From Acetobacterium malicum subsp. dehalogenans DSM 11527 (lineage in GTDB: Bacteria > Bacillota > Clostridia > Eubacteriales > Eubacteriaceae), in contig NZ_AXAC01000003.1 of assembly GCF_000472665.1 (NCBI RefSeq), forward strand, positions 132,836-196,835: a DNA stretch of 64,000 bases. Direction: 5' to 3'. Below, piece by piece: positions 4,605 through 57,300 of the stretch. A program made the translations under genes and the position numbers. Under the pieces are notes generated by a model. The model worked only from the letters and a program-made list of their open reading frames with translations, made no database searches and was not told where the DNA came from. The stretch's first letter is position 1; every line of letters starts with the position of its first letter.

Positions 4605-4640
4605 TAAAAAGGCAGGCCGTCGGATCGTCCGACGGCCTGT
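4605..4640 (-). terminator. Strong terminator for leftward transcripts
   Basis: A perfect stem CAGGCCGTCGGA / TCCGACGGCCTG is followed on the minus strand by CTTTTTATG. It belongs logically to the polyferredoxin gene that ends at 4830, but copy A3 now sits between gene and terminator. A decayed version of the same hairpin is visible on the other side of A3 (about 4783-4808). Confidence 0.85.
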
Positions 4641-4665
4641 TGATGTTGTTAAAAAAGATAACCCA

Positions 4666-4763
4666 GTACCGACAATTGTTACATCATGTTGTACGCATCG
4701 GAGCGGACACGGCAAAGCCTGTCCGATGCCGCGGCGAACAACAGATTAACAATTGGTCGGTAC
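4666..4763 (-). repeat. Family A palindromic element, copy A3 (short form)
   Basis: Reverse orientation. The core runs from GTACCGACAATTG to CAATTGGTCGGTAC with the CACGGCAAAGCCTG loop. Wider flanks match A4 and A7: AAAAAAGATAACCC on one side and TTTAGCGACAACCTC on the other. It lies between two minus-strand genes. Confidence 0.9.
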
Positions 4764-4829
4764 GGTAGTTTAGCGACAACCTCGCCGGCCCATGGATTTA
4801 AGCCGACGGATTACTGGGGTTAGCTGTTA

Positions 4830-9101: not shown

Positions 9102-9293
9102 AAAAAGACACTCGCGCGAGTGTCCGAGGTTGTCGATAAACTACCGTACCGACCAATTGTTAATCTGTTGTTCGCCGCGGAATCAGACAGGCTCTGCCGT
9201 GTCCGCTCCGATGCGTACAACATGATGTAACAATTGTCGGTACTGGGTTATCTTTTTTGGCAGTCTGAAAGACGTTCTTGTGAGTGTCTTTTT
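9102..9293 (+). repeat. Family A element, copy A4, between duplicated terminator hairpins
   Basis: The core is 9146-9243. It is preceded by an A-tract and hairpin (9102-9124, GACACTCGCGCGAGTGTC) and followed by a related hairpin with a T-tract (9268-9293, ending GTGAGTGTCTTTTT). The two flanking hairpins align as direct repeats with a few mismatches. The intervening flanks GAGGTTGTCGATAAACTACC and GGTTATCTTTTTTGGCAGTC match those of copy A7. Confidence 0.85.
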
Positions 9294-9312
9294 ATAATAG
9301 ATCAGAACCGGG

Positions 9313-10113
9313 CTATTTTTCGACGGCATCGATGGCGGAGTCGGCATCAGTAACGGTTCCCTCCGGGGTGGTTGGCGACAGGGTCATAAAAAAACCGTCG
9401 GTTTGATCGACAAAGGCGTCGGCGCTGTCGAAGCTGACATCGAGGAGATGGCCACCCTTGCTGCGGTCATCGGCGATGAAATGAAAGTGGTAACCTTTAA
9501 CATTCAAGCCGCCGATATCGGCCGGACACCACAAGCCGACCAGAGTGCCGCTGATCTTTTGATAATCAAAGATCGACTGGTTTTTGACGGCTTCGGAAAG
9601 CACCGGATACGGTTTTACCTGACTGGGTACCGAACGGGCTTTGATGGTGTTGAAGGTGCCGTCGATCCGGAACACATAAAAGGCATTCGGATCGGTCATC
9701 ATTTTGTCCAGTTCCTGCTCCAGGGCTTCCAGACTGGCGGTTGGGCCCAGTGATTTGGTCGCATCTTCGTTAAAGTAGGTAACCGCGGCAAAGGGAGTGG
9801 TGTCAGTGTCCGGGACTTCCTCCACGGCACCGCTGGCTTTGACCTTGTAGACGGTATTGTCAATCATCACCAGCTCGCCGTCCAGGGCGTTAAAGGTGCC
9901 GATGCCGACATCACCGTGCTGTTTCAATTCACCAAAACTCATAAAACCATCATAATTCCCGGCCAGCAGAGAATTAATGGTGGACGCCTGGAAGAGGGTG
10001 TCCGCTTTGGCTGCAGCGGCCTCACTGTTGGTCGTTGTGGTTGCGGCGGTACAGCCGGCCAGGGTCACCATCCCCAGAACCGATATAACAATTGCGGTAA
10101 TTTTTATTTTCAT
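9313..10113 (-). CDS. budA: Acetolactate decarboxylase, predicted lipoprotein
   Basis: 266 residues. Residues 1-21 form a lipoprotein signal peptide with lipobox LAGC (lipidated C21), followed by a short Ala/Thr-rich linker. The mature part matches alpha-acetolactate decarboxylase: DGFMSFGELKQHGDVGIGTF, RIDGTFNTIKARSVP, then GYHFHFIADDRSKGGH, whose three histidines are the zinc ligands of the family. The enzyme converts acetolactate to acetoin. The known enzymes of fermenters are usually cytosolic; a lipoprotein would act outside the membrane, like the exported Brevibacillus enzyme. It ends 9 bases of stem away from nothing else; yqeC lies 18 bases upstream on the same strand. Confidence 0.85.
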   Translation of the reverse strand: MKIKITAIVISVLGMVTLAGCTAATTTTNSEAAAAKADTLFQASTINSLLAGNYDGFMSFGELKQHGDVGIGTFNALDGELVMIDNTVYKVKASGAVEEVPDTDTTPFAAVTYFNEDATKSLGPTASLEALEQELDKMMTDPNAFYVFRIDGTFNTIKARSVPSQVKPYPVLSEAVKNQSIFDYQKISGTLVGLWCPADIGGLNVKGYHFHFIADDRSKGGHLLDVSFDSADAFVDQTDGFFMTLSPTTPEGTVTDADSAIDAVEK

Positions 10114-10131
10114 ATAAGCTCCTTCTTTTCT

Positions 10132-10875
10132 TTATTTAAGCTGTTCAACCCAACCCTCTTTAATGGAACCGAGCAGGCAATGGTCAAATAAGGGCGCTCC
10201 GATTTTTGCCATCAACCGGGCATTTGTCAGATTGTCACCATCGGCTTTGTTGATAAATAGAATCCGGGTGGTATTATGAGCCAGGGTCTGGTTTAGTTTA
10301 TTGTCAATAAAAGTAGCCAGGGTCTGCTGTAAAACGGCTTCATCAAAAACCGCCTGATCATTATTATTTTGTTCGTTATTATATAGTTCCGCGCGATGAA
10401 AGGTATCCGCGTCAATTTTCCGAAACAGGATCTCGGCCCCCATGACGTGAATCAGTTTGGTGGTAATCGACAGAATCGATGGTTCGTAGTCGTGATAGAA
10501 TTTATAAGGTTTGCGTTTTGATCCGTCCCCTTCATTAATGATGACCAGGGGCACAATCGCCGCCTTTAAATCAATCAACTCGGCTTCGGAAAACCCCGAT
10601 ATTTTCTGTCCGTTGACCCTTTCCTTGCCAATCAGCCATGCCCGTTGGGGGTCTTTAGTAATCGCTGCGATCACTGCCGTCATCTCTGAGCGGATCAGGC
10701 ACTGTGGTTCCGGCACATCGGCAATGCAGATTTTGGCGGTTGTGGTCATCACATGGTTAAGCTTTTGATCCGCCAGTTCCTGGCTGAGCGCAAACATCAG
10801 CGCGGTTTTACCGCCGCCGCCAGTAATGGTAATGACATCATTTGCGGTGATGTTCAGTTTGTCAATAAGTTTCAC
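10132..10875 (-). CDS. yqeC: Selenium cofactor biosynthesis protein YqeC
   Basis: 247 residues, GTG start with GGGAGAG upstream. A P-loop-like glycine run near the start (ITITGGGGKTALMFALSQEL) is the mark of the YqeC family, followed by MTTTAKI and IINEGDGSKRKPYKFY. YqeC accompanies selenium-dependent molybdenum hydroxylases (with YqeB and the selenophosphate synthase SelD) and is thought to act in insertion of the labile selenium cofactor. The partner genes are not in the window. It probably shares a transcript with the downstream acetolactate decarboxylase gene (18-base gap), for no obvious metabolic reason. Confidence 0.85.
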   Translation of the reverse strand: MKLIDKLNITANDVITITGGGGKTALMFALSQELADQKLNHVMTTTAKICIADVPEPQCLIRSEMTAVIAAITKDPQRAWLIGKERVNGQKISGFSEAELIDLKAAIVPLVIINEGDGSKRKPYKFYHDYEPSILSITTKLIHVMGAEILFRKIDADTFHRAELYNNEQNNNDQAVFDEAVLQQTLATFIDNKLNQTLAHNTTRILFINKADGDNLTNARLMAKIGAPLFDHCLLGSIKEGWVEQLK

Positions 10876-10954
10876 ACTGCTCTCCCTTTTATTCGAGCGA
10901 TAATCGGCTAATCCGATCGCTTCGTGTTCGTTTCGAACCGCCCCGCCTGATTTC

Positions 10955-13942
10955 TCAGGCCTTTAAATCCGGCGGCTTTATCAGTAGATTGTGGTTGTAA
11001 ATCGCGGCGATTTCGGCGGCATCCAGCGGTTTGCTGAAGACGTAACCCTGAATGCCATCGCAGTCACTGTTTTTGAGAACGGCAACTTTATCCCACTCCT
11101 CAATGCCCTCAGCCATAATTTTTAAATTGAGGCTGTGAGCCAGCAGGATCAGGCTTTCAATCACCTTGATCCGGTTGCCCTGTAAAAACTGATCACTGAT
11201 CGATTTATCCAGTTTTATTTTGTTGACCGGCAAATAGGTCAGACAATTCAGCGACGAATAACCGGTGCCAAAATCATCCAGTGCCACCGACAGCCCGGCG
11301 TCTTTAAGCTCCTTGAGGAATTGATCGGTCTGGAAATTGTTTTCCATCAAGATACTTTCGGTAATCTCAATCTCAATAAACCGGGGCTCGACATGATGCT
11401 GTTGCAGCAGCGCGGTGATATGGCTGACATAATCTTTGTCCCGCAGCTGACGGTTGGAAAAATTGATCGCCACCGGTTTTTCCGCCAGACCCTGATTGCG
11501 CCAGTGGACGATCTGGGTCACCGCTTCCCGGGCCACCCAGCGGCCGATCTCGCTGATCAGGCCAGTTTCTTCGGCCACCGGAATAAACTGATCCGGTCCA
11601 TAGCGGTTTTCTTTGAGTCGCAGCAACGCTTCAAACCCGCTGATCCGGCCGCTGCGCAAATCCACCTGGGGCTGATAGACCAGTTTAAAACCGTCAGATT
11701 TCAATGCCGTCCGGAGCAGCGCTTCAATTTCGATTTTGCGGTTCATTTCCTTTTTCAATTCATGATGATAATACATGTAGTGGTTTTTACCGCGGTTCTT
11801 AACCTCGTACATGGCCGTATCGGCATTCATGATCAGCTGATCGATGATGTTGCTGTCGTAGGGATAGCAGCAAATGCCCATGCTGATACTGACAAAAACT
11901 TCCCGGCTATTTAGTCGGAACGACTCATCAAAGGCGGTCAGGATTTTATCGGCATAGGCTTCAATATCGGCCTGACAAGATTTATTGGTAATCAGAATCA
12001 GAAATTCATCGCCACCGAGACGACCAACCATCATGTTTTCGTCAGAAATAGAGAGCAGCCGGCCGGCAATCAGCTTGAGCAATTCATCACCGCAGAGATG
12101 GCCGAGGGTGTCATTGATACTTTTAAAATTATCAATATCCAGAAGCAGCACCGCCCCGGTATGACCAGCCTGGAGTTCTTTTTCCAGCTGCACCAGAAAA
12201 CTCATCCGGTTGGGCAGCTGGGTTAAAAAATCATGTCGGGCCAGATGCCGGATCTGTTCTTCCTGAACCTTAAATTTGGTATTGTCCAGCAGAATCCCGT
12301 GTAACTTGCAAAAACTGCCGGCTTCTGATTTAATTCCTTTGCCGCGGATCAACAACCATTTCTGGTGCGGGTCGGAGCCCGCCGTCAGCACCTGAACGTT
12401 GATCTGGGCTGTTTTTCCCGTTAGGTAGTTGCGGACTTCAGTCACCAGATGGTCGCGATGGCTGGGCTCCAGAACGATGTCCATCCAATCATGGACATTA
12501 CTATGATTACTGATGGTTTTATTGATAATCCGGGAACAGTCACCGGCAAAAGTGATCGTTTTGGACGTGAGATCGACTTCCCAGACGGCGCTGTTGGTAC
12601 CCTCGATGGCCAGCTCAAACTTCTGGTTCAATTCGCCAACTTCACGATCGTGTTCTTCCATCACATCATATTGCCGCCGCAGCGCCCCTTCCACCGCTTC
12701 CAGTTCATTGTAGGTTATTTTAAGCTCGGTATTACTAAACTCCAGCGCTTTTTGGATACTCCGGCGTTTCAGATTATCATAGATCAGCACCAGTGTCACC
12801 AGCATCAGCGCGATCAGGATAATCGCCGTAGCCAGAATCAGATTGCGGTATTTATCCAGCGGATGTTCGGTTTTGTTGATCAGCACCGCATCCGTGGGAA
12901 TCAAGTGATCGGGAATCTTATACTGCTGGATCAGCGTGTAATCAAAAATATAATAATAGGGCGTCGCTTCAATCATCGCCATGGTTTCGACCGGGGTGCC
13001 CGCCAAAATATCACTGACCAGTTGGGCCGCTGTTTTTCCCAGGGCCTGGTAGTCCACCATTTTTCCGCCCAGCAGCCCCGCACCGACGCCGCCCACCGAA
13101 GCCCGGTAAACAGGGATCTGGGTATGCTGGTACAAAAAGGCCGCGGCTTTTTCAAAATCCATATAGTCGCCATGCTTATCGGGATTCATATCAAGAAACA
13201 GCAAAATTGTTTCATTCCCCAGTGGCTCCAGTTCCGCGCCCAGTTCGGCAAAGCTGTAGTCGGGGGTATTGAGGGTGGTAAAGGTCAGTTCGGGAAAGTC
13301 CTGGCGGAAGGATTCAAACTGCTGACGGTTGCCCTGACCAGTCAGGGTTTCATCGGCAATCGCGACGACCCGGGTGGCCCGGGGGTTAAAGACCCGGGCG
13401 ATCTCGAGGGTTTCTTTAATCGAGATCCGTTCAATGATGCCGGTGATATAAGGATCGGCGGCGGCCTGGCGGGCCCGGGTTTCATCGTTTACACCTAAAA
13501 AAACAATCGGCATCTGGGGAAACAGTTCGGCCTGATGATCAAGGGCAAATTGGAGGGCATTGTCATCCCCCACAATCACCGCGTCATAGGTTGGCAGCTG
13601 GGCCAATTTAAATTTCAGGCTCTGATAAAAAACCTGTTTATTTTCCGGAGTATCGAGGCGCTTGGTATCCATGTATTCAATTTCCAGATTGATCTTCTGT
13701 TCATCAAAAACCGACCGGATACCGGCAACCTGATCCGGTACCGAGACAAAGCTCTCACTGTAAGAGCTGATAAAAAGGACCGTCTTTTCTGACCCGGCCC
13801 GGACCAAAAAGGCTGGCCCCAGGCACAGATTGGTTACGAGCATCGTAACCGAGAAGACGCTAAAAAAGATCAGCAAATTCACCATTAAACCGGACTTTAT
13901 GGTTTTATCCTGGGCATTTTTTGATTTGGCTCTTGCAGTCAT
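10955..13942 (-). CDS. Membrane sensor with periplasmic-binding-like domain, PAS, GGDEF and EAL
   Basis: 995 residues. A membrane segment at ~18-42 is followed by an extracytoplasmic ABC_sub_bind-like domain (~50-340; SYSESFVSVPDQVAGIRSVF, VFLGVNDETRAR), a second membrane helix at ~366-388, a PAS-like region (~440-560), GGDEF (~575-730, motif RLGGDEFLIL) and EAL (~745-985, EALLRL plus DDFGTGYSSL). Both c-di-GMP synthesis and hydrolysis motifs look intact. No RxxD inhibitory site precedes GGDEF. The outer domain should bind a small ligand and tune c-di-GMP. It is followed upstream by another diguanylate cyclase gene on the same strand (26-base gap), so the two are likely one operon. Confidence 0.9.
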   Translation of the reverse strand: MTARAKSKNAQDKTIKSGLMVNLLIFFSVFSVTMLVTNLCLGPAFLVRAGSEKTVLFISSYSESFVSVPDQVAGIRSVFDEQKINLEIEYMDTKRLDTPENKQVFYQSLKFKLAQLPTYDAVIVGDDNALQFALDHQAELFPQMPIVFLGVNDETRARQAAADPYITGIIERISIKETLEIARVFNPRATRVVAIADETLTGQGNRQQFESFRQDFPELTFTTLNTPDYSFAELGAELEPLGNETILLFLDMNPDKHGDYMDFEKAAAFLYQHTQIPVYRASVGGVGAGLLGGKMVDYQALGKTAAQLVSDILAGTPVETMAMIEATPYYYIFDYTLIQQYKIPDHLIPTDAVLINKTEHPLDKYRNLILATAIILIALMLVTLVLIYDNLKRRSIQKALEFSNTELKITYNELEAVEGALRRQYDVMEEHDREVGELNQKFELAIEGTNSAVWEVDLTSKTITFAGDCSRIINKTISNHSNVHDWMDIVLEPSHRDHLVTEVRNYLTGKTAQINVQVLTAGSDPHQKWLLIRGKGIKSEAGSFCKLHGILLDNTKFKVQEEQIRHLARHDFLTQLPNRMSFLVQLEKELQAGHTGAVLLLDIDNFKSINDTLGHLCGDELLKLIAGRLLSISDENMMVGRLGGDEFLILITNKSCQADIEAYADKILTAFDESFRLNSREVFVSISMGICCYPYDSNIIDQLIMNADTAMYEVKNRGKNHYMYYHHELKKEMNRKIEIEALLRTALKSDGFKLVYQPQVDLRSGRISGFEALLRLKENRYGPDQFIPVAEETGLISEIGRWVAREAVTQIVHWRNQGLAEKPVAINFSNRQLRDKDYVSHITALLQQHHVEPRFIEIEITESILMENNFQTDQFLKELKDAGLSVALDDFGTGYSSLNCLTYLPVNKIKLDKSISDQFLQGNRIKVIESLILLAHSLNLKIMAEGIEEWDKVAVLKNSDCDGIQGYVFSKPLDAAEIAAIYNHNLLIKPPDLKA

Positions 13943-13968
13943 CGACCCCTCCGTTAATAAAAACCTCT

Positions 13969-15591
13969 TTATTTCACTTCAACGCGATTGCGGCCCTTTT
14001 CCTTGGCCTGATATAAGGCCGTATCGGCCCGGGAAACGATGCTTTCCGGCGAGCTGTCGGTGGTAAACGCCGACACCCCGAGGCTGATCGTCACCTGCCC
14101 GGCAGTGCTGAAGGCATGGCCGGCAACCGCCTGGCGCAGCCGCTCTGCCAGTACCGTGGCGTCGGCCAGCGTGGTCTCCGGCAGAATAATCAGAAACTCT
14201 TCACCGCCCCAGCGCCCCACCACATCGCCAGCACGGACATTATCATGAAGGGCCTCGACCAGTTCAATCAGAACCCGGTCCCCGACCTGATGGCCGTAGG
14301 TATCGTTGACCAGCTTGAAATGATCAATGTCCAGAATGATGATGGCAAACGGCACCCCGCCGCCTTTTGACGATTCGAATTGCTGTTCCAGCGTTTCGTC
14401 CAGTTTCAGCCGGTTAAAGCTCTGGGTCAGCTTATCGGTGATTGACAGCCGTCTTATTTCTTCCTCCATCAGTTTGCGTTCGCTGATATCCCGAGTGACC
14501 CCAAGCATCCCGATAAAGCGACCATCTTCGCTGTATATACCGGATACCGTTGCCTCGGTCCAGACGGTGCTGCCATCTTTGCAGGGTTGTTCCAGCTCGC
14601 CCCGAAAGACCTGGAACGGCAGACCGTTTTGAACCGAGTTGATAGCCCGGGCCAGCCCCTCCTGCATATGAATCAGTGAGTCCGGACACAAGACCTCCTC
14701 CGGCGTCTGGGCCATAATCTCTTCGACCGTGTAGCCCCGGAGTTTCTCCACCGACGGACTGATATAGGAAAACCGGCCTTCCAGATCCATGGTCCAGATG
14801 ACATCCGCGGCATTATCAGCCAACAGCCGATGCCGTTCTTCACTCTGCTGCAGTTTCGCTTCAATGGCCTTGAGTTGGGTGATGTCCCGAATCACGCTGA
14901 GGGCGTGAGGAATGTCATCGATCATGATGCGTTTTGATGACACCAGACCGATATGTCGGGCATTGTTTTTGGCATAAAAAGAAAATTCCAGGTTTTCCAC
15001 GTTGCCATCGCGTTCCAGGGTTTTGAGAAAGACCTCCCGTTGGCTGAGATCAACATAAAGATCGGCGATATTAAATTGTCCGCCGGTTAAATCCTCATCA
15101 GTAAATTTAGTCGCTTCCATAAAGGCCCGATTATAGGCAATTAGGGTCCCGTCGGCGACTTTGGTAATCACGGTGGCATCAGGAATGGTCTGAAACACCA
15201 TTTCAAAATGGGAGCGGGCTTCTTCCAATTCATGGATGGAAGACTCCAGCTTTTCGGTCATACTGTTAAAGGCCTCGGAAAAATCGCCGAGAAAATGGAC
15301 CCGCTGGGAAAAGTCGCCCGAAGCGATGGTTTTGGTGATCCAGGTCAGGTTCCGCAGCGAGGCCTGGAGATTTTTCATCGAGCCCAGCACATAGCCCTTT
15401 CCTTTAATATCATGGGAAAGATTGCCGTTGCCCAGTTCGGCCGCGGCTGCCCGGATCGTTCTCAGGGTTTGCTCAACCGCTAAAAAGGTGTCATCCTTAC
15501 TGAGATTTTCAGGGGCCGCGGGACTGACGTGAAGGTCATTAAGCAGGGCTTTGTAGTACTCTAAAATTGACTGTGCGTCGTTACTGAGCAT
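13969..15591 (-). CDS. Soluble HAMP-like/PAS/PAS/GGEEF diguanylate cyclase
   Basis: 540 residues without a clear membrane segment. Order: a linker and HAMP-like helices (~60-140, LTWITKTIASGDFSQRV), PAS 1 (~145-262), PAS 2 (~265-385, VIWTMDLEGRFSYISPS), then GGDEF domain (~390-540) with the active motif GRWGGEEFLIILP. RAGD lies five residues before GGEEF, which is the product-inhibition I-site. The enzyme makes c-di-GMP from GTP. It is the first gene of a two-gene transcript with the downstream GGDEF-EAL protein, which suggests that synthesis and breakdown are balanced together. Confidence 0.9.
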   Translation of the reverse strand: MLSNDAQSILEYYKALLNDLHVSPAAPENLSKDDTFLAVEQTLRTIRAAAAELGNGNLSHDIKGKGYVLGSMKNLQASLRNLTWITKTIASGDFSQRVHFLGDFSEAFNSMTEKLESSIHELEEARSHFEMVFQTIPDATVITKVADGTLIAYNRAFMEATKFTDEDLTGGQFNIADLYVDLSQREVFLKTLERDGNVENLEFSFYAKNNARHIGLVSSKRIMIDDIPHALSVIRDITQLKAIEAKLQQSEERHRLLADNAADVIWTMDLEGRFSYISPSVEKLRGYTVEEIMAQTPEEVLCPDSLIHMQEGLARAINSVQNGLPFQVFRGELEQPCKDGSTVWTEATVSGIYSEDGRFIGMLGVTRDISERKLMEEEIRRLSITDKLTQSFNRLKLDETLEQQFESSKGGGVPFAIIILDIDHFKLVNDTYGHQVGDRVLIELVEALHDNVRAGDVVGRWGGEEFLIILPETTLADATVLAERLRQAVAGHAFSTAGQVTISLGVSAFTTDSSPESIVSRADTALYQAKEKGRNRVEVK

Positions 15592-15970
15592 CTTTTTTGT
15601 CAGCTCCCTTCGATTGTGATTGTTAACACTGTCTGTTGACGTGATTCCGATTCATGATCTGTTGTGCTTTTTTTCTTGTTTTTGCGGCAACCGCAACTTG
15701 ATTCTATCGCTTTATTTTACCACGTCGACCCGGGGCATTGTCAAGGTGCTTTAATTGGCGTAGGCCCCGTTAGAGCAAATATACGCCAGTCTTATTTATC
15801 TGATCCCGGTTGTCCTGGCGCGCAATATTTGTTATGATCATTAAAAGAGTTCTTACCCGAATGCCCGTCTGTTATAACGTTTTGATTCCGGGTAATCAGA
15901 AAGAGACCATTCTAAACGAATCAGCTTCCCCCGTAACTGCCCATTCAAATCATGAAAGGAAGGTATTCTT
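15592..15970. other. Divergent intergenic region, 379 bases
   Basis: This gap separates the diguanylate cyclase (minus) from the membrane protein gene (plus). A possible plus-strand promoter is TTGTCC (near 15812) spaced 17 bases from TATGAT (near 15835). No repeat, RNA motif or short gene was recognised. A ribosome binding site GAAAGGAAGG precedes the ATG at 15971. Confidence 0.4.
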
Positions 15971-16921
15971 ATGTCCCCCAAAAATAGTGGCCCCACTCCG
16001 GTTCCCTTTGTCTACAAGCCCTCTGAAAAAAAAGTGTTGGCACAGCTGACGGCCTTTGCCAACCGCTACCAGCCCGTTCACTACAAAAACGATATCATTC
16101 TGGAGTTTGTCTTCACCAATCTTGATTCCCGCTATCAATTGGTGATGGGTGTAACCGATTGTGTGGTTAAATCCGCCGACTTTGTCGATTTTACCACGCA
16201 AATTGAAATCAGTTTTGATATTTTTGAAGAGGTCGCCTTTAAAGGTCTGTGTATTAAGGAGGTGATTTTGAACAATGATTGTCAGATCAACGGCGCCTTT
16301 GCCACCATTATGGCTTTTGAAGATTATTTTGATCTGACCAAAAAAGAAATCATCAAAAAAGCAACCCTGAATCTAATGATCATTCAGTGGATGATGATCT
16401 GGATGGTGATGTCCTTTGATGTTTTCTGGGGCAGCATTGCCGGAATCGTCTATTCCTCGCTGATGCCCTTGCTGAGCCGCAAGTTTCTGCTGACCTTTTA
16501 TGACCGGCTGAGTATTTTTCTGGTGACCGCGTTATGCCTGTTGGGGCTGGTCGCTGTGGATGAGACCCTGATCGTCTGCACCTCCTACTTTTTATTTGGC
16601 GCCATGTGGCTGGGTTCCTGTCTGACCAAAGCCCCCCTGACGGTTCATTACAAGCTGGGGAAATTTGGCTACCGCGGCTATTACAACCAGATTTTTCTCG
16701 ATTCCAACCGGATCATTACAGCCATGTGGGGGGTCTATTATCTGATCGTGACCGGCACCACCTACCTTCTCGATGTCAACGGGATGCGTAGTCTCAGTGG
16801 GATTCTGAATTTGCTGATCCCGGTGTTACTGGGACTGGTGACCGTCAAATTTGTCAAGATTTATCCCGAAAAGCGCAAGGCCGCGTTGATGGAGCAACTG
16901 GCCGCGATGCCCCAAGAATAA
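15971..16921 (+). CDS. Membrane protein with soluble N-terminal domain, function unknown
   Basis: 316 residues. Residues 1-135 are soluble and alpha/beta in pattern (YQLVMGVTDCVVKSADF), loosely reminiscent of sterol-carrier-like folds, though this is weak. Residues 135-300 hold about five hydrophobic segments (IIQWMMIWMVMSFDVFWGSI, LSIFLVTALCLLGLVAV, TLIVCTSYFLFGAMWLG and others). A charged pair-rich loop (KFGYRGYYNQIFLDSNRI) lies between the last segments. I do not recognise the family. It stands alone between a divergent cyclase operon and copy A5. Confidence 0.6.
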   Translation: MSPKNSGPTPVPFVYKPSEKKVLAQLTAFANRYQPVHYKNDIILEFVFTNLDSRYQLVMGVTDCVVKSADFVDFTTQIEISFDIFEEVAFKGLCIKEVILNNDCQINGAFATIMAFEDYFDLTKKEIIKKATLNLMIIQWMMIWMVMSFDVFWGSIAGIVYSSLMPLLSRKFLLTFYDRLSIFLVTALCLLGLVAVDETLIVCTSYFLFGAMWLGSCLTKAPLTVHYKLGKFGYRGYYNQIFLDSNRIITAMWGVYYLIVTGTTYLLDVNGMRSLSGILNLLIPVLLGLVTVKFVKIYPEKRKAALMEQLAAMPQE

Positions 16922-16950
16922 AGTCAATCGATCATTGCCGACATACTACC

Positions 16951-17048
16951 GTACCGACCAATTGTTAATCTGTTGTTCGCCGCGGAATCGGACAGGCTCC
17001 GCCGTGTCCGCTCCGATGCGTACAACATGATGTAACAATTGTCGGTAC
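16951..17048 (+). repeat. Family A palindromic element, copy A5 (short form)
   Basis: A complete short core with CAGGCTCCGCCGTG at the centre. It is followed by TAGGTAATCTTTTTAACGGTC, close to the A4/A7 right flank, and then by a hairpin with a T-tract (about 17069-17099) ending GGGATCTTTTTTTA that would stop rightward transcription. Confidence 0.9.
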
Positions 17049-17126
17049 TAGGTAATCTTTTTAACGGTCACAGATCTCGTTTTTCCGGGATCTTTTTTTA
17101 TGAAAACGATTCGTGTAAAAGTTGAC

Positions 17127-17155
17127 TTGACAATTAAAAATTCTTTGGATAAAAT
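17127..17155 (+). promoter_or_regulatory. Sigma-A type promoter of the marR-MATE operon
   Basis: TTGACA (17127-17132) and TAAAAT (17150-17155) are spaced by exactly 17 bases, immediately upstream of the MarR gene. Because the promoter lies inside a longer possible reading frame, it decides that translation starts at 17184. Confidence 0.8.
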
Positions 17156-17183
17156 AGATAGCATGCTAAGTATTGGAGAAACG

Positions 17184-17624
17184 ATGAAGACAGATACCTT
17201 TAATTTTGGTGGCACCGTTAAACAATTGAACAACATTATGGAAATGCGATTTAATCATTCTTTGAAACAATGGGATCTGACCTCATCCCAGTTTTCCGTG
17301 ATTATCTTTCTCCTGCACCATCAGGATCAGGAGGTCAATCAGAAGATGATCGAGGACGCCTTCCTGCTGAAAGGGCCGACCGTAACCGGGATTGTCAAAC
17401 GCCTGGTTGAAAAGGATTTTATCCGGCGCCGACCCGATTGCCAGGACCGCCGGATTAACTATCTGGAACTGACCGAAAAGGGCCAGCAACTGGAATCGCT
17501 GGTCTGTAACGAGATCACCCGCCTGGAAGCGGAAACCCTCCGGGGCATTTCCGCTGAACACCTTGAACTGCTGGAAGCACTTCTGCATCAAATTTTAAAA
17601 AACATTACCGGCCCTACACTATGA
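17184..17624 (+). CDS. MarR-family transcriptional regulator
   Basis: 146 residues from ATG 17184 (GGAGAA upstream; promoter at 17127-17155 excludes the earlier ATG). Winged helix: LTSSQFSVIIFLLHH, then NQKMIEDAFLLKGPTVTGIVKRLVEKDFIRRRPDCQDRR, the wing with the typical DxRxxxLxLT pattern (DRRINYLELT). MarR proteins bind DNA as dimers and lose affinity on ligand binding. It precedes a MATE efflux gene by 22 bases on the same transcript, the usual arrangement for drug-responsive autoregulated operons. Confidence 0.9.
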   Translation: MKTDTFNFGGTVKQLNNIMEMRFNHSLKQWDLTSSQFSVIIFLLHHQDQEVNQKMIEDAFLLKGPTVTGIVKRLVEKDFIRRRPDCQDRRINYLELTEKGQQLESLVCNEITRLEAETLRGISAEHLELLEALLHQILKNITGPTL

Positions 17625-17646
17625 TTCAACGAAAGGAATTATTTTT

Positions 17647-19020
17647 ATGAAAAACGATCTATTTGAAAAGTACCCCATCCCCAAAGCCGTTATGACCCTG
17701 GCGATCCCCACCATGCTGAGTATGCTGGTGACGATTGTCTACAACATGGCTGATACCTACTTCGTCGGTCAGACCGGCGACCCCAATCAGGTGGCTGCCG
17801 TGACCCTGACGATGCCGATCTTCTTTCTGCTGATGGCCTTTGGTAATATTTTTGGCATCGGCGGCGGTTCTTATATCTCGCGGCTGCTGGGCGAACGAAA
17901 AATCACCGATATTAAACATACCTCCTCCTTCGCCTTCTATGGCTCAATTGCCCTCGGTCTGATCGGGATGGTGGTATTCCTGATCTTTATGGATCCGATT
18001 CTGACCATTGCCGGCGCCAGCCCCAATACCATCGGCCTGGCCCGGGACTACCTAACCATTATTGCCTATGGCGCCGTCGCCATCAGTCTGCAGAATTCCC
18101 TGGCCCAGATTGTCCGGTCCGTCGGTGCGGCCAAAGAATCGATGATCGGGATGATGATCGGGACCATCGTCAACATCATTCTCGATCCGATTATGATTCT
18201 GTCCATGGGTATGGGCGTGGCTGGGGCGGCCTGGGCCACCGTGATTGGAAATGCCTGCGCGGTGCTTTATTTTATCTATTACATTTTCAAACACAGTGAT
18301 GTGCTCTCCATCGCTCCCAAAGATTTCCGGATCGAAGGAGCCATTGCCAAGAACACCTTCGCTATCGGGATTCCGGCCTCCGTTAATAATATCCTGATGA
18401 GTTTTTCGATGATCATGCTAAACAGTTTTGCCTCAGCTTATGGTGATACCGTGATTGCCGCTCTGGGTGTTTCCGGCCGGGTCTTCTCCATTGTGGTGAT
18501 GCTGGCATTGGGTCTGGCGATGGGGATTCAGCCCTTTATTGGCTACAATTACGCCCAGCAAAACTATAAACGGATGAACGATGCCATCAAATTTACGGCG
18601 GTGGTTGGCATGATTATGGGAACCGTGGTGATGATCTTCGCGATCCTTTTTGCCACCCAGATCATCACCTTCTTTATCAATGACGCCGATGTTATTGCCA
18701 TCGGTGCGACGATGCTGATTATTCAAATGCTGGTCAGCCCCTTCCTGGGCCTCCAGTTTATTGTTACCACCGTCTATCAGTCGTTAGGAAAAGCGATCCC
18801 GTCCCTGATCCTGACTGTTTGCCGCCAGGGACTGGCCTTTATCCCGATTTTGATTATTGGCTCCTCGCTGTTTCAGCTCCAGGGTATTATCTGGGCTCAA
18901 CCACTGGCCGACGTTGTCTCCATTATCCTGGCCGTGTCAATGTACACCGTCACCTACCGTAAACTGCGGGCCAGCAAGACCGAACCGGTTGCTCTGGCGA
19001 TGGAAGACGGGTTGGCTTAA
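17647..19020 (+). CDS. MATE-family multidrug efflux transporter
   Basis: 457 residues with twelve hydrophobic segments in two halves. N-terminal IPTMLSMLVTIVYNMADTYFVGQ and internal GGGSYISRLLGER are typical of the DinF/NorM-like MATE branch. Such proteins export cationic drugs or dyes using a sodium or proton gradient. It is co-transcribed with marR upstream. The stop codon is followed within six bases by the left half of a duplicated terminator around copy A6. Confidence 0.9.
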   Translation: MKNDLFEKYPIPKAVMTLAIPTMLSMLVTIVYNMADTYFVGQTGDPNQVAAVTLTMPIFFLLMAFGNIFGIGGGSYISRLLGERKITDIKHTSSFAFYGSIALGLIGMVVFLIFMDPILTIAGASPNTIGLARDYLTIIAYGAVAISLQNSLAQIVRSVGAAKESMIGMMIGTIVNIILDPIMILSMGMGVAGAAWATVIGNACAVLYFIYYIFKHSDVLSIAPKDFRIEGAIAKNTFAIGIPASVNNILMSFSMIMLNSFASAYGDTVIAALGVSGRVFSIVVMLALGLAMGIQPFIGYNYAQQNYKRMNDAIKFTAVVGMIMGTVVMIFAILFATQIITFFINDADVIAIGATMLIIQMLVSPFLGLQFIVTTVYQSLGKAIPSLILTVCRQGLAFIPILIIGSSLFQLQGIIWAQPLADVVSIILAVSMYTVTYRKLRASKTEPVALAMEDGLA

Positions 19021-19025
19021 GACAT

Positions 19026-19196
19026 AAAAAGCGCCCTTCTATGGGCGCCCGGGTTGGTGAAAACTACCGTACCGACCAATTATTAATCTGTTATTCGCCG
19101 TGTCCGCTCTGATGCGTACGATATGATGTAATAATTGTCGCTACTGGGTTGGTATTTAAAGATTAACTTGAGCGCCCTTAGATAGGGCGCTTTTTT
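19026..19196 (+). repeat. Family A element, copy A6, between duplicated terminator hairpins
   Basis: The core is 19069-19144, the shortest copy: the interior is reduced to GCCGTGTCCGCTC. An A-tract plus hairpin AGCGCCCTTCTATGGGCGC lies at 19030-19048, and AGCGCCCTTAGATAGGGCGC plus a T-tract at 19171-19196. The two hairpins are near-identical direct repeats; the left one terminates leftward transcripts and the right one rightward transcripts. Confidence 0.85.
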
Positions 19197-20785
19197 AGTT
19201 CACTGGCACGGAGCCGGGCTTCGGTGTGGAGCATGCCGATGTTGGTGGTCATGACGTTGCTGGCAGTGGCTGGGTAGTCTAAAAAGATCGCAATGGTTAC
19301 GGCCAGGGCCAGTCCTTCCAGCGGGATGCCCAGCAGGTTGAAGACAATCGTAAACAGAAAGGCGCCCATTCCCGGCGAGGGCGGCACGGCCACCGAGAGG
19401 ATCATACACAAAATCACCACCGGGATCATATCCGGCAGCGAAAAACTGATCCCATAAATATTACCGACAAACAGGGCGGTCAGCAAGAGCATCGGAATGG
19501 CATCCTGCTTGTTGAACAGGACCCCCACCGGAATCGAAAAATGGACCACATAGTCGCGGATTTTTTGTTTGCTCAGGGCCGTCGCGGTGTGGCTGGCAAA
19601 GGTGGCACTGGAGCTGGCGGTGGACAGCGCAATCAGCAGAAACGGCGCGGCGGACTTCAGATAGGCCAGCGGGCTGATTTTATGATAAACTGCAACACTC
19701 AACAGCATCACCAGATCGATGATTAGAAAAGAGCCGAGCAACAGCGCAATCAGCCCAAAGGCCCCCAGCAGGGCGGCGCCATCGCCGGAGATCATCATGT
19801 TCAGGATACTGATAAAAACGACCCCGGGCATCAGCGCACAGATCGCATCGAGAATCGTGGCAAAGACCAGATTGGCTTCGGTGATGATCCGGGTGATTGC
19901 GGGAAACCGGCCCTTTAAGGTCAGCATCACGATCCCGCCAATAATCGCCAGAAACATGATTTGCAGGGTATTACCGTCGATAAAAGGCTTTATGATATTG
20001 GTGGGAATAATGCCGAAGACCATCGCCCCGATCTGATTCCACAGATCACCCTGACCGCCGGCACTGGCCGAGCCACTGCGGCCCAGCAAAAATAGCTGAG
20101 CCAGAGCCAGTGAAACCGCCGACGCCAGCAGAATAACTGCCATCGACCAGGTCAGCAGCAACCGGAAAATCCGCTTCATCTGGGCCAGGTTATCCATATT
20201 GACAATGCTGCCGATGGCCGAGAAAAACAGCACCGGAATGACGATGGCGTTCAGAAAGCCGAAAAAGGTACTGCTGATCGGTGTCAGAATGCCGGCCCCC
20301 AGCTGCTTACCGAGCTCCGGCGCCAGTGCCTCAAAAACCAGCCCCGCCAGGATTGCCGCCACCAGCGCCACGGCGGTGGCCAGAGCCGGATTCAGCGGTT
20401 TCTGTTTCAGGGTATAGGCAACCGTGTTACAGCCTTTTTCATAGGAATAGGTCACCGCTGATAAACCAATCAGAATATTCTGGCCGATCCGGTTGTAGTC
20501 GGCGTCCTCATCCTCCGATGTTTCCGGCAGCGCCAGCGGGTTTTGGGGATCGCCCCAGTAGTTCAAGGTTAGGGTAATCGTTTTAAAACGCTTCTGAATC
20601 GCCAGTTCAAAACTGGCCGTGTCAGCCGCCTGATCGGCCCAGTAAACAATCGCTTCTTCGACAAAGAGCTGAGCTTTCAGGTTGTCGGTCTTGGGACACT
20701 TATAGTGGTTTAGCAGCCCTTCAACAAAGGTATTGGCTTCGTCGAGGCTGGCCAGACTTAGTGGTAAAATCTTTTTTGTTTCCAT
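19178..20785 (-). CDS. Dicarboxylate/amino acid:cation symporter with N-terminal ATPase-like domain
   Basis: 535 residues. Residues ~1-130 resemble a histidine-kinase-like ATPase/anti-sigma fold (AQLFVEEAIVYWADQAAD, then DYNRIGQNILIGLSAVTYSYEKG). Residues ~135-530 form the DAACS/GltP transporter (ALATAVALVAAILAGLVFEA, FFGFLNAIVIPVLFFSAIG, the serine-rich ALSTASSSATFASHTATAL, and PPSPGMGAFLFTIVFN). The transporter takes up glutamate, aspartate or C4-dicarboxylates with cations. The fused cytosolic domain could sense nucleotide or bind a partner. The stop overlaps the right-hand terminator hairpin of A6. Confidence 0.85.
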   Translation of the reverse strand: METKKILPLSLASLDEANTFVEGLLNHYKCPKTDNLKAQLFVEEAIVYWADQAADTASFELAIQKRFKTITLTLNYWGDPQNPLALPETSEDEDADYNRIGQNILIGLSAVTYSYEKGCNTVAYTLKQKPLNPALATAVALVAAILAGLVFEALAPELGKQLGAGILTPISSTFFGFLNAIVIPVLFFSAIGSIVNMDNLAQMKRIFRLLLTWSMAVILLASAVSLALAQLFLLGRSGSASAGGQGDLWNQIGAMVFGIIPTNIIKPFIDGNTLQIMFLAIIGGIVMLTLKGRFPAITRIITEANLVFATILDAICALMPGVVFISILNMMISGDGAALLGAFGLIALLLGSFLIIDLVMLLSVAVYHKISPLAYLKSAAPFLLIALSTASSSATFASHTATALSKQKIRDYVVHFSIPVGVLFNKQDAIPMLLLTALFVGNIYGISFSLPDMIPVVILCMILSVAVPPSPGMGAFLFTIVFNLLGIPLEGLALAVTIAIFLDYPATASNVMTTNIGMLHTEARLRASELKKRPI

Positions 20786-20856
20786 GGTTCCCCCTTATGC
20801 TTGGTATCTTATGACTATGCTGGAAATGAACCCTACCACACTACACCCACACAAAT

Positions 20857-21137
20857 AACACCGGATCTGTGACCCGGTGTAAAGACTGTCAAAAAAGATA
20901 ACCTAGTACCGACAATTGTTACATCATGTTGTACGCATCGGAGCGGACACGGCAGCGCCTGTCCGATTCTTCGCGAAGGCAACGAGCCAATCACAAGCTT
21001 GCTTGTAGTTGGCGACTGCCCGCGACCAAGGCGAAAGGAGTGCAGCGGATTTCGCATGGTGCGGCGAACAACAGATTAACAATTGGTCGGTACGGTAATT
21101 TATCGACAACCTCAACACCGGATCTATGACCCGGTGT
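20857..21137 (-). repeat. Family A element, copy A7 (long form), flanked by 24-bp direct repeats
   Basis: The core is 20906-21093, reverse orientation, with a nested hairpin and the ~50-nt shared module. A palindromic 24-base sequence (CACCGGATCTGTGACCCGGTG plus ends) at 20857-20880 recurs at 21114-21137 with one difference. Both copies are terminator-like hairpins. Inner flanks match copy A4. Confidence 0.9.
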
Positions 21138-35761: not shown

Positions 35762-35860
35762 GTACCGACAATTGTTACATCATGTTGTCCGCATCGGGGC
35801 GAACAGGTCATCGACCTGTCCGATCCCGCAGCGAACAACAGATTAACAATTGGTCGGTAC
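35762..35860 (-). repeat. Family A palindromic element, copy A10
   Basis: Reverse orientation. The interior carries AGGTCATCGACCT, a variant found only in copies A10-A12. The preceding flank GTGAGGCAAAAACCCCATAC recurs almost unchanged before A12 at about 42251. Confidence 0.9.
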
Positions 35861-42159: not shown

Positions 42160-42199
42160 CGCTTTTCTCCAAGTTCATATTATTCAGGGCCCCGTAACA

Positions 42200-42480
42200 A
42201 TCCCCCATTCAGGGGCCGACCACGCCTACCGTAATTAGGCCCGTCGTTTCGTGAGGCAACAACCCCATACCAGCGCCAGCCAGTACCGACAATTGTTACA
42301 TCTGGCCGAAACTATACCATCATTCCGGGCCCAACAACAACCCTCAATTCAGGGGCCGACATTTATCACATCATGTTGTCCGCATCGGAGCGAACAGGTC
42401 ATCGACCTGTCCGATTCCGCGGCGAACAACAGATTGATAAATGATCGGGCCCGACCACGCCTACCGTAAGTGGGCCCGAC
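42200..42480 (-). repeat. Family A element, copy A12, with compensated arm changes and nested direct repeats
   Basis: An outer remnant GTACCGACAATTGTTACATC starts at 42283 and then breaks off. A complete second version spans 42352-42452 with arms GGCCGACATTTATCACATC and GATTGATAAATGATCGGGCC. GACCACGCCTACCGTAA occurs at 42218-42234 and 42453-42469. ATTCAGGGGCCGAC occurs near 42207 and 42347. The copy lies between polymerase and primase genes. Confidence 0.8.
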
Positions 42481-54639: not shown

Positions 54640-54812
54640 CCGGAAATGTTTATTAGCTGTTGACTCAAACTACCGTACCGACCAATTGTTAATCAGTTGT
54701 TCGCTGCGGAATCGGACAGGCTTTGCCGTGTCCGCTCCGATGCGTACAACATGATGTAACAATTGTCGGTACTGGATTGTCTTTTTAAATTGCCTGAATA
54801 GCCGGAAATGTT
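54640..54812 (+). repeat. Family A element, copy A13, flanked by an 11-bp direct repeat
   Basis: The core is 54675-54772. CCGGAAATGTT occurs at 54640-54650 and 54802-54812. The sequence between repeat and core (about 24 and 29 bases) matches the extended ends of A4: TGTTGACTCAAACTACC on the left and GGATTGTCTTTTTAAATTGC on the right. Confidence 0.85.
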
Positions 54813-55460: not shown

Positions 55461-55617
55461 GATCTTTCCCCTTTCTGTGGCGACATTCTCAGGCGACAAC
55501 AGCCGTACTCTGAGCTGGATAATTCGTTCTCCCTATTATTAACAGCAGTATACCACAATTGCTTCGATATTTCATCAACTTTCGTAAAATCTATTGATCA
55601 TGTCTTTCAAAAAAACA

Positions 55618-55905
55618 TCCCGGGATCCCGGGCGATCCACGGATCGTTTGTCACTGCCGTACCGACCAATTGTTAATCTGTTGTTCGCTGCGCCATGCGA
55701 AATCCGCTGCGCTCCTTTCGCATTGGTCGCGGGCAGTCGCCAACTATAAACAAGTTTCTGATTGGCTCGTTGCCTGCGCGCAGAATCGGACAGGCTTTGC
55801 CATGTCCGCTCCGATGCGTACAACATGGTGTAATAATTGTCGGTACTGGGTTATTTTCGTTATTACAGACAAGACACCCCGGTTGCCCGGGGTGCCTGTG
55901 TTGAT
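55618..55905 (+). repeat. Family A element, copy A14 (long form)
   Basis: The core is 55659-55846, with an ATGCGAAATCC / TTTCGCAT hairpin and the ~50-nt shared module (about 55725-55775). A CCCGGGATCCCGGG hairpin lies to the left (55619-55632) and a related CACCCCGG / CCGGGGTG hairpin to the right (about 55876-55895). Confidence 0.85.
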
Positions 55906-57202: not shown

Positions 57203-57300
57203 GTACCGACAATTGTTACATCATGTTGTACGCATCGGAGCGGACACGGCAAAGCCTGTCCGATTCCGCAGCGAACAACAGATTAACAATTGGTCGGTAC
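57203..57300 (-). repeat. Family A palindromic element, copy A15 (short form)
   Basis: Canonical arms and CACGGCAAAGCCTG interior, reverse orientation, in the dhaK-dhaL gap. Confidence 0.9.

Follow-up and report, generated by a model that had tools for sequence, protein, structure and literature searches.

A multicopy short element of Acetobacterium that inserts into and duplicates terminator hairpins, with a probable IS1182-family mobiliser

Family A, a repeat found several times in the 64,000-nucleotide stretch of Acetobacterium malicum DNA analysed here (the window), is an Acetobacterium-wide non-autonomous transposable element (MITE). Its target is an inverted repeat, in most cases an intrinsic terminator, and the entire repeat is left on each side of the inserted element. 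The best overall explanation, which we hold with high confidence, is a MITE mobilised by an IS1182-family element that inserts into hairpins and terminators and duplicates them. An earlier note on this DNA had proposed a terminator as the insertion target, duplicated upon insertion, and had named flanking direct repeats and element-free orthologous sites as the places to look; the excess of repeats over re-paired controls and the single hairpins at empty sites described below both bear the proposal out.

The 4.05-Mb A. malicum genome contains about 108 copies of family A. A whole-genome search with the core motifs, allowing up to 3 mismatches, returned 108 left and 107 right motifs, and 0 with the reversed control. 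Carriers were 17 of the 41 genomes searched, every one of them Acetobacterium, and the database records containing the motif belonged to Acetobacterium species and Bacillota MAGs. The core occurs in two classes, mostly 97-100 bp or 186-190 bp (typically 97 and 187 bp), the long class carrying an additional internal module of about 90 bp (e.g. window 20906-21092). The element ends are fixed (GAGGTTGTCGATAAACTACCG ... TGGGTTATCTTTTTTGACAGTCTG) and were defined from the flanking repeats, which mostly stop 21 bp to the left of the core and begin 24 bp to its right. The full element including its ends is therefore about 142 or 232 bp, which corrects the previous estimate of about 150 bp. Family A is short, non-coding and multicopy, generates a target-site duplication, and has ends in common with an autonomous element (right end 16/16, left end only similar; see below), as is characteristic of MITEs. 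The entire A4 unit can fold as a single long hairpin. The class may change between species at orthologous sites, a short copy in one corresponding to a long copy in another. Some cores (the A4 orthologue L297 in genome G012, and L160) contain a short palindromic insert around GGGGTCAGACCC, and a variant at window 42190-42304, adjoining a family A right end, has the family A interior with other complementary arms (ATTTATCA / TGATAAAT). No paper on Acetobacterium MITEs was found among the abstracts and passages accessible in the open-access literature.

Three copies in the window show the arrangement most clearly. A4 (9126-9267, plus strand) is a short-class copy with a 97-bp core at 9147-9243, its left end matching the consensus at 21/21 and its right end at 23/24 positions. 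It lies between the hairpins AAAGACACTCGCGCGAGTGTC (9104-9124), which retains the A-tract side, and AAAGACGTTCTTGTGAGTGTC (9268-9288), which is followed by a T-tract. A6 (19049-19169, plus strand) is a shortened copy with a 75-bp core (19070-19144), bracketed by hairpins at 19030-19048 and 19170-19190, the latter next to a T-tract. A7 (20882-21113, minus strand) is a long-class copy with a 187-bp core at 20906-21092, and its hairpins at 20858-20880 and 21115-21137 have one difference. The positions of these bracketing hairpins and the single difference at A7 agree with the earlier note, as does the placement of the A-tract with the left copy and the T-tract with the right one, only the outer sides keeping their tracts; its term "near-identical" was generous for A4, where 16/21 positions match. 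In a second species (L050, G002), where the orthologous site is also occupied, the two hairpins are identical at 19/21.

Less clear cases were also present in the window. A14 (55639-55870, plus strand; core 55660-55846) is a long-class copy with decayed ends. Its left hairpin (55615-55632) has diverged; its right hairpin (55872-55896) matches the sole hairpin of two congeners (L086, L120). A3 (4642-4783, minus strand), a short-class copy with both ends intact and a possible duplication, is flanked by a perfect hairpin at 4613-4639 and by a poor, decayed partner at 4784-4809. A13 (54655-54796, plus strand), a short-class copy with partly decayed ends, provides weak evidence: the same sequence is indeed present on both sides (CCGGAAATGTT at 54640-54650 and 54802-54812), as a short repeat and not a hairpin.

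For the statistical comparison, the left and right flanks of each of 99 copies were scored against all mismatched pairings. Flank similarity within the same copy reached a score of at least 12 in 26 of the 99 copies, with 1.6 expected and a maximum of 8 in 10,000 re-pairings. When the repeat was strictly anchored at the element ends, it was found in 19/30 copies with two recognisable ends, 1/17 with one end and 1/51 with neither, against 4/974 (0.4%) mismatched pairs, and congeners behaved alike (18/36 intact-ended copies). The duplication is real, yet confined almost wholly to the intact-ended minority; some 20-25% of all copies still show it. Among the copies collected from the A. malicum genome and its congeners, duplicated sites total 50, and as some duplications are perfect (e.g. 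20/20 at L199), some insertions look recent.

The duplicated segment corresponds to a whole hairpin. Of the 30 intact copies, 19 have a palindrome directly at the left edge and 17 have one at the right, compared with 1.9% of random anchors. The segment is 15-36 bp long (median 23 bp), and its predicted folding is much stronger than that of shuffled versions (mean z -4.1; 76% below -2). In 32 of 35 reconstructed empty sites, no more than 1.5 bp separates its centre from the palindrome axis. An A-tract 5′ of the left copy, a T-tract 3′ of the right copy, or both were present at 38/50 sites. The duplicated copies lie between convergent genes in 10/21 cases and between divergent genes in 1/21, as expected for terminators. 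Between the two hairpin copies of a site, differences are three times rarer in the stems (0.067) than in the loops (0.205). Compensatory changes between hairpin copies were dropped as a line of evidence, double changes numbering only two.

Element-free orthologues carried a single hairpin at eight sites (A6, A7, A14, L003, L019, L028, L167 and L179). The sample of empty sites was opportunistic, some loci having been originally collected for carrying another copy; for A6 and A7, a direct search was made. The empty A6 site in G012 and G007 has a lone AGCGCCCC...GGGCGCT hairpin at the same position, and the empty A7 site has one hairpin between the same flanks in eight congeners, so that insertion in the lineage of the window is far likelier than the eight losses otherwise needed. 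No empty site was found for A4, the syntenic orthologues found being all occupied; in G007 and in the MAG containing L140 the element is inverted within the same terminator. Opposite element orientations at one orthologous terminator were seen across species for L193 versus L154 and for A4 (window 9126-9267) versus L083 and L140, and symmetrically shifted cuts at the same terminator for L172 (23 bp) and L130 (19 bp). The opposite orientations and shifted cuts suggest repeated insertion into one target.

A large class of copies differs from this pattern. A good core without recognisable ends was found in 51/98 copies, and simple decay does not explain these well. Their cores are about 94% identical to the consensus. 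Near-consensus cores without IS1182-like ends or duplication occur, for example, at window 35762-35859 and 57203-57299, and some such copies are nested in the loop of a different palindromic repeat (AACAATTTTGT...ACAAAATTGTT). Inverted repeats flanking the end-less copies were only in weak excess, partly owing to nested insertions in the other palindromic repeat.

The probable mobiliser of the MITE is a DDE transposase of the IS1182 family acting in trans, judging from shared terminal sequence and target behaviour. A profile search gave IS1182-family matches in 17/19 genus genomes, many of them weak or partial. In one IS1182 subgroup (G007:C58, G012:C32 and a decayed copy in G014), the terminal repeat is CAGACTGTCAAA[AG]AA, and the right end of the MITE (CTTTTTTGACAGTCTG), once reverse-complemented, is identical to the 16 bases that open the G007 copy (L246); the left end (GAGGTTGTCGATAAA) resembles the IS end only loosely. 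L246 aligned with the G012 copy (L247) over 1489 bp, and the alignment stops at the terminal repeat on either side. The L247 transposase matched NCBIfam NF033551 (IS1182) at 362.5 bits, above the cut-off of 270, as well as DDE_Tnp_1_6 and DUF772, and its gene in G012 is free of internal stops. Both L246 and L247 lie between two copies of a palindrome, and at the orthologous site of L247 a congener (L321) lacks the IS and carries one hairpin, in keeping with the palindromic or hairpin targets reported for some IS1182 members. Within L247 (1046-2534), each terminal repeat is overlapped by a terminator-like hairpin that lies just inside the IS end.

No IS with this end (CAGACTGTCAAAAAA) was found in the A. 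malicum genome, a 76-contig draft. The two larger IS1182 elements of that genome, C26 and C20, are not obvious partners, their ends being different (AAAGGGGGTGTCGC... and AGGGGCTGTCGGG...); the C26 copy showed no duplicated hairpin, and the C20 copy reaches a contig end. Another IS1182 element in G011 (L263, 584 aa) lies in a split palindrome, TGGCCGGAAT|IS|ATTCCGGCCA, without duplication, like IS1272.

Three other accounts were weighed. Neighbouring terminators are frequent between convergent genes and the family A element is itself a long hairpin, so two similar terminators might have existed as a tandem or pair before insertion, or the element might bring its own hairpins, with no target duplication in either case. 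We regard this as most improbable, as the hairpins match within a site and differ from site to site, the limits of the repeat fall exactly at the element ends, and element-free orthologues have the single hairpins described above. The end-less copies with well-kept cores would fit a host-maintained structured element, an RNA or a protein-binding site at gene ends, whose mobility is ancient and secondary. Core conservation as a sign of function was unsupported, however: where both orthologues are occupied, the core is overall no better kept than the flanks (0.90 vs 0.90). Perfect duplications such as that at L199 and the lack of any Rfam match to family A at gathering thresholds likewise speak against this account, and we consider it improbable.

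The remaining rival concerns the enzyme. According to the title of Calcutt 1999, as cited in PMC3317919, IS1630, an IS30-type element of Mycoplasma fermentans, targets variable-length inverted repeats and duplicates them, and movement of the MITE by a transposase of this type would account for the same target behaviour. An IS30 transposase is, however, absent from the A. malicum genome and above the cut-off in 2/19 genus genomes, against 17/41 genomes with the MITE, and the MITE ends do not match this type, the right end being the same as an IS1182 member's terminal repeat; we therefore think an IS30-type mobiliser very unlikely. As far as the cited sources describe it, IS1630 also differs from family A in being a full IS of the IS30 family present in few copies, with no MITE described.

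The closest relatives in behaviour are IS1272 and TnSha1, IS1182-family elements of staphylococci that, in the passages available from PMC4923244 and PMC5678879, replace or partly delete a hairpin without target duplication. According to the same passages, they share with our system the transposase family, inverted-repeat or terminator targets with no fixed sequence, and the repeated use of one target in both orientations. Unlike IS1272, family A duplicates the whole hairpin, which stands on both sides of the element and once in empty sites, and its main population is a MITE. Hairpin duplication is drawn as a hypothetical alternative pathway in one of these papers (PMC5678879). Family A resembles bacterial MITEs in general, as portrayed in the accessible part of the review PMC10969869, in being short, palindromic, non-coding, high in copy number, mostly intergenic and, probably, mobilised in trans; that part of the review names neither an IS1182 MITE nor a terminator-duplicating MITE. 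What is already known, then, is that the IS1182 member IS1272 replaces hairpins and that the IS30-type IS1630 duplicates inverted repeats; here, IS1182-type ends are combined with hairpin duplication, in a MITE.

Under the preferred reading of an IS1182-mobilised MITE, the transposase would recognise a hairpin-forming target, possibly an extruded cruciform, and both 3′ ends of the element would be joined to the opposed stems at their 5′ feet. The full stem-loop would then be copied by gap repair, and we propose that this is why the duplication is variable in length and centred on the dyad. Only the outer tracts would be retained, the A-tract by the left copy and the T-tract by the right. Since the left copy then has no downstream T-tract and the right copy no upstream A-tract, transcripts from either side would cross the element and terminate at the far copy. 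The earlier idea that each convergent gene keeps its own terminator would thus hold in effect, with the far copy as the working terminator and about half of the contexts (10/21) being convergent. With termination preserved, insertions would be nearly neutral, which would go some way towards explaining the roughly 108 copies in a genome. A fuller scheme is offered tentatively and is less likely than not to hold: an IS1182-type transposase would read the extruded hairpin (cruciform) and cut both feet symmetrically, the target structure setting the duplication length; the MITE would thereby spread through terminators with termination unharmed, and about half of the copies would reflect a core on alternative ends or a second route.

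The 50 duplicated sites constitute a large natural sample of structure-guided transposition, and the candidate partner IS has an intact transposase gene in the cultured Acetobacterium wieringae DSM 1911. For annotators, the element boundaries can now be placed and paired terminators in acetogens be explained. For the IS1182 family, the findings mean that a hairpin can be duplicated as well as replaced, which bears on target choice and cutting. For Acetobacterium, family A would represent a mobile element that reaches about 100 copies by way of a target whose function survives the insertion.
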